Shown one piece after another: positions 32,092 to 35,737 of a DNA stretch of 64,000 nucleotides. The stretch lies in the NCBI RefSeq assembly GCF_008629695.1, contig NZ_VWSH01000001.1, positions 1 through 64,000 on the forward strand, in the 5' to 3' direction. The notes beneath the pieces are model-generated. The model saw only the letters and a program-made list of their open reading frames with translations, was not told where the DNA came from and did not search any database. The translations under genes were made by a program, and so were the position numbers. Numbering within the stretch: position 1 is the first letter of the stretch; each line of letters starts with the position of its first letter. The DNA comes from Taibaiella lutea (GTDB lineage: Bacteria; Bacteroidota; Bacteroidia; Chitinophagales; Chitinophagaceae).

Positions 32092-32192
32092 TACTTATCC
32101 AGAAAGGTGGAGGGACATGGCCCGACGATACCTTAGCAACCTATACTCGATATAAGGTGCTAATTCCAACTCAAGAAATTGAGATAGATAAG
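32092..32192 (+). promoter_or_regulatory. SAM-I (S-box) riboswitch
   Basis: The SAM-I landmarks are present in order: CTTATCCAGAAAGGTGGAGG, GACATGGCCC, GATACCTTAGCAACC, AAGGTGCTAATTCCAACTC and the closing GATAGATAAG that pairs with CTTATC. A terminator hairpin (32236-32267) lies downstream, so S-adenosylmethionine should switch transcription off before the gene at 32352. Confidence 0.94.
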
Positions 32193-32235
32193 TCAGGTCA
32201 AGCTTTTAATCGGTCTATTATCAAACTCATTATAC

Positions 32236-32351: not shown

Positions 32352-33527
32352 ATGAGCACAAGCACTCAGATTCTCAACAGCATTCCTGTTGACCCGCAAA
32401 CAGGCGCTATCAGCGTTCCCATTTATCAAACCGCAACCTTCGTGCAGGAAGCACCCGGTGTAAACAAAGGTTATGATTATTCACGTAGTAACAATCCGAC
32501 AAGATCCGCGCTGGAAAGTGTTTTGGCTGCATTGGAAAACGGCAGCACAGGTCTTGCTTTCGCCAGTGGCTTAGCCGCAATTGATGCTGTTCTTAAGCTA
32601 TTGCAGGCCGGCGATGAAATTATTGCAGTCGATGATATTTATGGCGGCGCTTACCGTTTGTTTACGCATGTTTACGAAAAATTCGGCATCAAAATTAAAT
32701 ATGTCGACACGACAGATGTCTTGAATGTAGCAAATGCAATCGGCCCTGACACAAAACTGATCTGGCTGGAATCGCCTACGAACCCTACATTAAAAATATC
32801 GGATATTGCAGCTATTGCAAAGCTCTCCAAACAATGCGGGGCTTTGCTTTGTGTAGATAATACTTTTGCATCCCCCATCCTTCAAAAGCCTTTGGATTTG
32901 GGTGCGGATATTGTTATCCATAGCGCCACCAAATACTTGGGCGGCCATAGCGATTTGATTGCAGGTGCGTTAATTGCAAAAGATGCGGAGTTGGGCGCCA
33001 AACTTAAGTTTCTCCAAAATGCTGCAGGAAATGTATTGGGGCCTTTTGACAGCTGGTTAGTACTTCGTGGTATTGAAACCCTTTCGCTCCGTGTGTTTCA
33101 ACAATCCAACTCCGCACTTGCCGTGGCAAAATACCTGGAACAACATCCGGAAGTTGCAGCAGTTTATTATCCGGGATTATCTTCCCACCCTAATCATCTA
33201 TTAGCAAAATCACAATTAAAAGCTTTTGGCAGCATTATAAGCTTCCGCTTGAAAAATGACACAAAAGCCGCAGCTACAGCCTTTCTTCAAAATACAACAT
33301 TATTTCATCTTGCTGAAAGTTTAGGCGGTGTCAAAAGCCTTAGCTGCCTGCCTTGTGAGATGACGCACAAATCTGTTCCTGAAACAAAACGAAGGGAAGT
33401 AGGCATTACGGATGGCTTTATCAGATTGTCTGTAGGTATAGAAGAAACCGAAGATTTAATAGCGGATCTAGCAGCGGGATTAAAAGTTATAAGTCAATCG
33501 AGGATCAAGGAACTGGCTTTGGCTTAA
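32352..33527 (+). CDS. Cystathionine gamma-synthase/homocysteine-forming PLP enzyme
   Basis: 391 residues of the Cys/Met-metabolism PLP family. YDYSRSNNPTRSALE is the PLP-phosphate motif, DNTFASPILQKPLDLGADIVIHSATKYLGGHSD carries the PLP-binding Lys, and DGFIRLSVGIEETEDL is the C-terminal signature. It should join an activated homoserine to cysteine or sulfide; cystathionine gamma-synthase, gamma-lyase and sulfhydrylase cannot be told apart by eye. Control by the SAM-I riboswitch favours a biosynthetic role. Only one internal Met occurs (CEMTH), an unusual depletion shared with its neighbours. Confidence 0.88.
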   Translation: MSTSTQILNSIPVDPQTGAISVPIYQTATFVQEAPGVNKGYDYSRSNNPTRSALESVLAALENGSTGLAFASGLAAIDAVLKLLQAGDEIIAVDDIYGGAYRLFTHVYEKFGIKIKYVDTTDVLNVANAIGPDTKLIWLESPTNPTLKISDIAAIAKLSKQCGALLCVDNTFASPILQKPLDLGADIVIHSATKYLGGHSDLIAGALIAKDAELGAKLKFLQNAAGNVLGPFDSWLVLRGIETLSLRVFQQSNSALAVAKYLEQHPEVAAVYYPGLSSHPNHLLAKSQLKAFGSIISFRLKNDTKAAATAFLQNTTLFHLAESLGGVKSLSCLPCEMTHKSVPETKRREVGITDGFIRLSVGIEETEDLIADLAAGLKVISQSRIKELALA

Positions 33528-33572: not shown

Positions 33573-33688
33573 GCTACAAACAGGACGAATGTATTGCCAA
33601 ATAAAATTTATGGTTAATTAAAAGATAAAAGAGGATGAGCATTATTAATTTCATTAGCTTTGTTTCACTTGCAAACATTGCAAAATCA

Positions 33689-33772
33689 ATGAAGCCAACA
33701 ACTATTCATACTACACATATCCATCTGATGCATCGACGCGTCATGTGTAGCTATTGTTGTAATTGGCAGTAA
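33689..33772 (+). CDS. Putative Cys-rich leader peptide (attenuator)
   Basis: A 27-codon ORF beginning ATG AAG CCA and ending TGG CAG TAA encodes a peptide ending in HRRVMCSYCCNWQ. A basic HRR followed by a cluster of Cys codons (three of the last eight residues) is the layout of cysteine-sensing leader peptides, in which ribosome stalling on Cys codons controls downstream genes. The RNA has CTACACAT (33711-33718) facing ATGTGTAG (33743-33750), and a CTTGC-GCT-GCAAG hairpin with a T tract follows at 33823-33840. Downstream are the OsmC-like and homoserine dehydrogenase genes. Function is inferred from sequence and position only. Confidence 0.6.
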   Translation: MKPTTIHTTHIHLMHRRVMCSYCCNWQ

Positions 33773-33881
33773 TACATCTATTACAATCTTCCTTTTTAAT
33801 TTTTCTTTTGAGTTTTAAAATACTTGCGCTGCAAGGTTTTACTCTCTTTTTACCAACAATTTTTTAATCGTTTTTTACGTC

Positions 33882-34337
33882 ATGGCTAAGCTAAATTTTT
33901 CTTTTGCAGGAGAAAGTATTCAATCTTCTAAACTGGAATCCAAGACCCGCAAGTTCGACCTTGAATTTGAAAGCAATACTTATTTGTCATTTATAAAGAA
34001 TCCTACTTTTTCAGTAGAATATTTCTTTTCCATCAATAACTACGCTGAAAATTTAAGCGATGCTTTTCACATGGCTGCTAAAGAAGCAGGTATTGAAGTG
34101 GCTCAGTTTAATGTCATTATAACAGGCAATCTTGATTCCAATTTAACCCATAAAGAAAATTTCAATAACAGCATTTTTAATAAGATAGATGTTTCATTGT
34201 CTATTAAATCCAATGCGCCTGATGAAGCTCTGGAACAGCTTTTGAAGCTTGCCAATGAACTAAATCCGATTGAAGAAAGCATCGCCAATCAGGTAAGATT
34301 TCAATTTTCGTTGAACTCGGTTATTCATCTGAATTAG
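33882..34337 (+). CDS. Cysteine-free OsmC-like protein
   Basis: 151 residues. The long helix PTFSVEYFFSINNYAENLSDAFHMAAKEAGIEV and the strand-helix IDVSLSIKSNAPDEALEQLLKLANELNPIEES follow the OsmC/Ohr pattern. The two catalytic cysteines are gone: the second sits in a CP motif in true OsmC and is Asn128-Pro129 here, and the protein contains no Cys at all. A peroxidase role is therefore unlikely. It lies between the Cys-rich leader ORF and homoserine dehydrogenase. Its only internal Met is at 64. The fold assignment is by eye and moderately secure. Confidence 0.6.
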   Translation: MAKLNFSFAGESIQSSKLESKTRKFDLEFESNTYLSFIKNPTFSVEYFFSINNYAENLSDAFHMAAKEAGIEVAQFNVIITGNLDSNLTHKENFNNSIFNKIDVSLSIKSNAPDEALEQLLKLANELNPIEESIANQVRFQFSLNSVIHLN

Positions 34338-34474: not shown

Positions 34475-35737
34475 ATGTCTAAGCAAAACAAATTAACCAT
34501 TGGCCTGTTCGGCTTTGGTGTGGTAGGAGAAGGTCTTTACAAGGTATTACAACAAACGCCGAGCCTGAATGCAAACTTGAAAAAGGTTTGTATTAAACAT
34601 GCCGACAAAGAAAGAAATGCACCCGCAGCGCTCTTCACAACTGATAAGAATGACATCTTAAATGATGCCGAAATAAATGTAGTTGTCGAAGTTATTGATG
34701 ATGCCGATGCCGCATTTGAAATTATAACAACAGCTTTTAAAAATGGCAAGGCCGTGGTAAGCGCTAATAAGAAAACGATTGCGGAACATTTACCGGAATT
34801 TTTGAAGATACAACAGGAAACAGGTTTACCATTTTTATATGAATCTGCAGCATGCGCTTCCATTCCAGTTATAAGAAATCTGGAAGAGTATTATGATAAT
34901 GACTTATTACATTCCATTAAAGCAATTGTAAATGGTTCTACAAATTATATTCTGACCAAAATATTTGAAGAAAACCTGGAATTCAATGTTGCCCTGAAAC
35001 AAGCGCAGGATTTAGGCTTTGCTGAAAGCAATCCCAAACTTGATGTGGAGGGTTTTGATGCTGCCAATAAATGGACATTCCTTTTGACCCATGCCTATGG
35101 AATTGTAGAAGCTACGGAAAACATACTTTTTAATGGCATCCAGAATATTCAGTTGAGCGACGCGAAAGTGGCTAAAGAAAAAGGTTATGAAGTAAAATTA
35201 GTTGCGCAGGCAAAGAAATTATCAAACGGTAAAGTGGCAGCGTTGGTATTACCTCAGTTTGTTTCAAAAGAAAATCCTTTGGCTTTGGTGAAGAATGAAT
35301 ATAACGGTGTGGTTATTGAAAGCGGATTTGCTGATGAACAATTCTTTTATGGAAAAGGTGCGGGAAGCTTTCCGACTGCATCAGCGGTATTGAGCGATAT
35401 TTCGGCGTTGCGTTACGACTACAGATATGAATATAAAAAACTATATCACCATCAACCATTTGGCTTATCCAATGATTATTATCTAAGTGTATTTGTAAGT
35501 GCAGCATCCTGGAACAATATTCCGATTGATGATTTTGAATGGATTGATGAAAGTTATGCTGCCAAAAACAGGTGTTATATTACCGGTGTAATCCATTACA
35601 GCAAGTTAAAAGATGATAACTGGTGGAAACATAATGGCATTTCTTTAATACTGGATGCCAATGCGGTAATTGAACCGGAATCATTAGAAGCAATCAGACC
35701 CGAAAAAGCTATTACTTTCTTAGAACAGGTATTGTAA
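34475..35737 (+). CDS. Homoserine dehydrogenase
   Basis: 420 residues. The N-terminal NAD(P) domain has GLFGFGVVGEGLYK (GxGxVG) and VVSANKKTIAEH. The catalytic domain shows VNGSTNYILTKIFEE, the family signature, and FAESNPKLDVEGFDAANK with the catalytic Asp and Lys region. It reduces aspartate semialdehyde to homoserine, the branch point to threonine and methionine. It lacks a C-terminal ACT regulatory domain of the classical type. Apart from the initiator it has no Met and only three Cys. Imperfect GTGAATAGTGAATG and ATCTAA repeats fill the 137 bases before it. Confidence 0.88.
   Translation: MSKQNKLTIGLFGFGVVGEGLYKVLQQTPSLNANLKKVCIKHADKERNAPAALFTTDKNDILNDAEINVVVEVIDDADAAFEIITTAFKNGKAVVSANKKTIAEHLPEFLKIQQETGLPFLYESAACASIPVIRNLEEYYDNDLLHSIKAIVNGSTNYILTKIFEENLEFNVALKQAQDLGFAESNPKLDVEGFDAANKWTFLLTHAYGIVEATENILFNGIQNIQLSDAKVAKEKGYEVKLVAQAKKLSNGKVAALVLPQFVSKENPLALVKNEYNGVVIESGFADEQFFYGKGAGSFPTASAVLSDISALRYDYRYEYKKLYHHQPFGLSNDYYLSVFVSAASWNNIPIDDFEWIDESYAAKNRCYITGVIHYSKLKDDNWWKHNGISLILDANAVIEPESLEAIRPEKAITFLEQVL

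Follow-up and report, generated by a model that had tools for sequence, protein, structure and literature searches.

In Taibaiella lutea (Chitinophagaceae), a short open reading frame (ORF) ending in cysteine codons precedes genes for an OsmC-like protein and a homoserine dehydrogenase. Control by Cys-codon leaders very probably exists in Bacteroidota, with the T. lutea leader as a member, judging from conservation within the genus and from poly-Cys leaders found before cysH operons; on both counts the cysteine-sensing leader proposed for this phylum in the first-pass annotation is well supported. Ribosome stalling at the leader probably gauges the supply of cysteine, by analogy with mycobacteria, and a stall under cysteine starvation would relieve attenuation of the two downstream genes (probability about 0.76). 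For this model we infer that the ORF is translated, that cysteine is the signal and which step is blocked.

The 27-codon ORF with a Cys-rich tail is present at 33689-33772 of the 64 kb window (the whole stretch of T. lutea DNA that was analysed), as originally described. Its Cys codons start at 33746, 33755 and 33758, three within the last nine codons, and a gap of 109 nt separates it from the OsmC-like gene, which is followed by the homoserine dehydrogenase gene. The leader frame is also open upstream to an ATG at 33635, but this codon lies 5' of the promoter box (33655-33662), which makes 33689 the likely start. The box, TAGCTTTG, matches TAnnTTTG, the established -7 promoter box of Bacteroidota, and is the same in four species, which places the start of the transcript most likely near 33669. 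The distance of 34 nt between box and leader ATG suggests a 5' leader of about 20 nt before this ATG. A TTTGG -33 box is found about 20 nt 5' of the -7 box in three Taibaiella species and is weak in T. lutea.

Table 1. Features of the leader locus in the T. lutea window.
Feature	Position	Strand	Remarks
SAM riboswitch before the cystathionine-type gene	32092-32194	+	RF00162, 86 bits
Cystathionine gamma-synthase/lyase-type enzyme, 5' of leader	32352-33527	+	PF01053, 9e-150
-7 promoter box, Bacteroidota type TAnnTTTG	33655-33662	+	TAGCTTTG; identical in 4/4 Taibaiella species
Leader ORF, 27 codons	33689-33772	+	Peptide MKPTTIHTTHIHLMHRRVMCSYCCNWQ, then stop; tail ...VMCSYCCNWQ
Long hairpin over leader ORF	33694-33767	+	Fold shared by all four species; z between -2.1 and -3.0
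Pyrimidine-rich, C>G tract right after leader stop	33773-33812	+	Y = 0.72; candidate Rho-loading region
Terminator-like hairpin (33810-33844), then TCTTTTT	33810-33851	+	Local fold -8.0 kcal/mol
OsmC-like protein, first gene 3' of leader	33882-34337	+	PF02566, 7e-7
Homoserine dehydrogenase	34475-35737	+	PF00742, 4e-50; PF03447

The best NCBIfam models for the upstream cystathionine-type enzyme are cystathionine gamma-lyase/synthase, none scoring above cut-off, and the order of SAM riboswitch and cystathionine-type gene is the same in the other three Taibaiella species (L098-L100). Among 195 family genomes searched, the OsmC-like protein is confined to those of Taibaiella (four). Homoserine dehydrogenase is followed by the gene for a potassium transporter of the Kup type and then by one for a bifunctional FAD synthetase/riboflavin kinase. 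In T. koreensis (G002:C21:107583-108752) and T. helva (G003:C21:284063-285241), a second gene resembling homoserine dehydrogenase (43-44% identity) lies about 0.7 kb 3' of the first; no such gene was found in the T. lutea genome. Elsewhere in the window, Rfam matches correspond to a Flavo-1 RNA (384-466) and a cobalamin riboswitch (2646-2836).

The leader is syntenic in all four Taibaiella species examined (T. lutea, T. helva, T. koreensis and T. chishuiensis), the peptides of the last three being MIHATNFTTRIRMTQPCVMCSYCCCW, MDRTINYTTRIRMTQPCVMCSCCYCC and MTATAIHIYTTQTVIARQRMMCSCCCYMW, respectively. When the reading frame was checked in these close relatives, it proved to be conserved: the ATG is aligned, the frame is open, the MCS(Y/C)CC tail is kept and the change in length is in frame, and the other two frames hold stops in the four-species alignment. 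From 3 to 6 Cys residues stay near the end of the leader, with positions swapping between Tyr and Cys codons, and the nucleotide stretch ACTACAC...ATGTGTAG is also conserved. The N-terminal part of the peptide is not conserved, though the start codon and frame are. The HRR sequence before the Cys run, taken by the first-pass annotation as a mark of the actinobacterial polycysteine family, occurs in T. lutea only, the corresponding residues being IRMTQPCV in T. helva and T. koreensis and IARQRM in T. chishuiensis; membership in that family is supported neither by HRR nor by NCBIfam, which has no family for the tested leader peptides.

An RNA model built from the promoter and the ORF recovers the four Taibaiella leaders at E values of 6e-23 to 7e-19 and nothing convincing in the other 290 family genomes, where the best match (E 0.018) has no Cys ORF; its best matches outside Taibaiella (E 0.018-0.1) were rejected for the same reason. 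The genuine matches of a peptide search of 147 relatives were congeners only, and the inspected matches of the pattern MCS(Y/C)CC from other genera, in 294 family genomes, fell within large genes, ran antisense to them or did not precede sulfur genes. No convincing leader precedes homoserine dehydrogenase at 27 other Chitinophagaceae loci. The pattern TTTG..ATG..TGYTGYTGY was dropped as too unspecific within the genus.

The long hairpin over the leader (z-scores of -2.1, -2.5, -2.4 and -3.0 in the four species) contains both complementary segments of the first-pass annotation, CTACACAT (33711-33718) and ATGTGTAG (33743-33750), which are exact reverse complements. Its pairs join ACAAC (33698-33702) with GUUGU (33756-33760), the latter in Cys codons, CUACACA (33711-33717) with UGUGUAG (33744-33750), and UGAUGC (33726-33731) with GCGUCA (33738-33743). 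In the alignment 94.7% of cells are paired and three pairs have changes on both sides; this covariation comes from four sequences, is equalled by 38 of 500 shuffles and is suggestive only. The smaller hairpin annotated at 33823-33835, CTTGC-GCT-GCAAG, is real and forms the core of the terminator-like hairpin, which stands in the same place in the other three species with a differing sequence. A simulated ribosome stall on the Cys codons opens the leader hairpin in all four species and lowers the terminator-like hairpin consistently in T. helva only. Hence the switching of hairpins with ribosome position that had been suggested is borne out by folding simulations of T. helva and not of T. lutea, T. 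koreensis and T. chishuiensis, and a conserved terminator/antiterminator switch was not seen in simulations of the four species.

Loci with PF01507 matches (cysH/cysD) were gathered from Chitinophagaceae and phylum-wide, and a leader was defined as an ATG ORF 8-50 codons long that has three or more Cys within 7 residues and lies in the stretch from 60 to 420 nt before the PF01507 match. Such an ORF is present in sense at 17 of 46 Chitinophagaceae loci and in antisense at 0 of 46, with 1.2 expected from dinucleotide shuffles; the corresponding numbers for other Bacteroidota are 8 of 72, none, and about 0.9. Among the 17 family leaders, two (L153 and L200) are weak and one (L208) has an internal Cys run. 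The run is usually at or near the leader end (e.g. ...TQCCCCCC before the stop), as exemplified by the peptides MQRFLTTRILLMNATNTQCCCCCC, MKNLAHIKYICCCCC, MIMLFTPHIINGCCCCNTCCNC and MNKQTTAASLHLTVRNRATVMAACCCTRTCCCCCM; most cysH leaders are 36-75 nt 5' of the gene, and a TAnnTTTG box lies at most 63 nt from the leader start codon in 14 of the 17 family leaders listed. Two of the 8 leaders outside the family, from two genomes of one genus in another class of the phylum (L241, L242), end in RMTCCC before PF01507 genes, which suggests that the leader class reaches past Chitinophagaceae.

Within Taibaiella, cysH/cysD are present in T. chishuiensis and T. koreensis, and T. lutea and T. helva have weak PF01507 matches only. 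Both species with strong matches have a poly-Cys leader before cysH (MNKQTTAALQSLHAPTHAALMMACCCSCFCCCC and MSFYNVSAFSAYVHPVAPVTCCRIVCSHLAICCCC), the ends being ...MMACCCSCFCCCC and ...LAICCCC. The peptide of T. chishuiensis is similar to one from another genus (L164); both begin with MNKQTTAA, which suggests shared descent. At the T. chishuiensis locus (L264:2508-2614), a SAM riboswitch, the poly-Cys leader and cysH follow one another on one strand, and the same tandem is found in another genus (L152:2428-2571); in this layout, riboswitch and leader would form a stack of two sulfur-sensing controls on a single transcript.

Over the 40 nt past the leader stop, C exceeds G in 23 of 23 leaders measured, and the mean Y is 0.65 vs 0.48 in leaderless loci at comparable distance (p = 7e-6), a control that may include coding sequence. 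Pairing of Cys codons with downstream RNA gave no above-chance signal across the class (Fisher p = 0.16), and pairing between the ORF start and Cys codons was not significant in cysH leaders at 13 loci. The strong hairpin AAAGCCTTC...GAAGGCTTT followed by TTCTTTTT, which is intrinsic-terminator-like with a T tract, was observed between the Cys-containing ORF and cysH at L208 (G009); because of it, the block may differ between loci. A motif like GTAGACTA also lies upstream of cysH leaders, near the promoter or leader start (L151, L155, L162, L163, L167, L206, L210, L211 and L214), with an inverted copy, TAGTCTAC/TAGTCCAC, upstream in several loci. This motif, present in 11 of 17 leader loci vs 4 of 29 leaderless ones, is possibly a repressor site.

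By composition alone the T. lutea ORF is not rare: over both strands of the window, ATG ORFs 8-50 aa long that have three or more Cys within 7 residues occur 18 times. It rises above chance because it is conserved. A functionless chance ORF, which that count would allow, is very improbable given that promoter, frame and Cys tail are conserved in four species and that a related leader class occurs before cysH. The locus could instead be a conserved structured RNA (a riboswitch, sRNA target or protein-binding hairpin), in which UGUUGU serves to pair with the ACAACA where the ORF begins, the Cys-rich frame being a by-product. The retention of the hairpin in four of four species, pairing Cys codons with the ORF start, agrees with this, but the frame and start codon are kept though the N-terminal peptide varies, Cys codons outside the paired part are kept as well, and unrelated cysH leaders have terminal Cys runs but no comparable significant hairpin (z -0.7 and -1.0 for the two of Taibaiella), all of which makes a purely structural role improbable.

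According to the starvation-stall model, a transcript from near 33669 would carry the short leader ORF ending in Cys codons. When Cys-tRNA is plentiful, ribosomes would translate the leader to its stop and dissociate, the hairpin over the ORF would refold, and the two downstream genes would be expressed at an attenuated level. When Cys-tRNA is scarce, a ribosome would stall at the terminal Cys codons, open the hairpin and cover the adjoining pyrimidine-rich tract, and RNA polymerase would read through. In Escherichia coli, a ribosome that stalls at the end of the tryptophanase leader tnaC covers a neighbouring Rho site. The mechanism proposed here is of that type, although tnaC senses free tryptophan via the nascent peptide and the signal here would be scarcity of Cys-tRNA. 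A C-rich, G-poor stretch after the stop, as in a tnaC-like Rho-dependent system, is present by composition only, and a terminal Cys run with a C>G tract fits the layout that shielding of the following RNA by a stalled ribosome would call for. Rho-site shielding is placed first because a pyrimidine-rich C>G tract follows most leaders, and because similar, unconserved polypyrimidine motifs follow the ORF of mycobacterial Cys leaders, for which Rho was suggested (Seliverstov et al., PMC1262725). Against the starvation-stall model, the terminator-like hairpin responds consistently to a simulated stall in T. helva only, pairing of Cys codons with downstream RNA stays at chance level across the class, the T. 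lutea leader has only three Cys codons and is weaker than most cysH leaders, and homoserine dehydrogenase would be a less direct target of Cys control than sulfate assimilation.

As the blocked step, Rho loading is the leading, if tentative, candidate; an intrinsic terminator-like hairpin is rather unlikely, and access to a downstream start codon less likely still. In a classical terminator/antiterminator arrangement, the stall would free the ORF-start arm to pair with the 5' arm of the terminator-like hairpin. GCAACAA can indeed pair with UUGUUGC of this hairpin in T. helva, where stalling lowers the hairpin's probability from 0.78 to about 0.46, but there is no such drop in T. lutea (one stall position excepted), T. 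koreensis or T. chishuiensis, and we regard this arrangement as unlikely. Similarly doubtful is translation attenuation, by which the leader would govern access to the OsmC start codon and not transcription: polycysteine ORFs of Mycobacterium smegmatis are described as translation attenuators (PMC13236596, PMC9031893) and in T. lutea and T. helva the start regions of leader and OsmC are paired with each other in folds of the full length, yet the gap between leader and OsmC is about 110 nt, and the Cys codons lack conserved pairing to downstream start regions.

Cys-codon leaders of cys operons are known in Mycobacterium, Propionibacterium and Bifidobacterium (Seliverstov et al. 2005, PMC1262725). 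The Bacteroidota leaders share with these actinobacterial ones a Cys run near the stop, a position before sulfur genes, and a polypyrimidine stretch after the ORF, usually without a conserved terminator. They differ in phylum, in their unrelated peptides and in the TAnnTTTG promoter, and the window locus also in the conserved hairpin over the ORF and in its OsmC/homoserine dehydrogenase target. Cysteine-responsive attenuation at leaderless mycobacterial polycysteine ORFs is experimentally supported (Canestrari et al. 2020, doi 10.1111/mmi.14498, as cited in PMC9094748, PMC9031893 and PMC13236596); the citing passages call these leaderless ORFs translation attenuators, whereas the window leader would lie about 20 nt inside its transcript. 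Leader-peptide attenuators have been suggested for amino-acid operons of Flavobacterium psychrophilum, likewise a case of leader-peptide control of amino-acid genes in Bacteroidota, in a passage (PMC9723704) that names no cysteine. No prior description of a Bacteroidota Cys leader was found in the open-access literature searched.

A separate poly-Cys regulon of Bacteroidota, or at least of Chitinophagaceae, can tentatively be proposed, which would comprise sulfate assimilation and the OsmC/homoserine dehydrogenase genes of Taibaiella, would in some cases lie downstream of a SAM riboswitch, with SAM read first and Cys-tRNA second on one transcript, and would act by Rho-site shielding. The tandem of SAM riboswitch and Cys leader would be a simple two-input device, and many unannotated short ORFs would become testable. 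If the leaders before cysH in Bacteroidota do form a separate, recurrent class, the counting of Cys-tRNA by stalled ribosomes would prove to be a general control of sulfur assimilation, and the phylum, in which little is known of how sulfate assimilation is controlled, would have gained a regulator of it.
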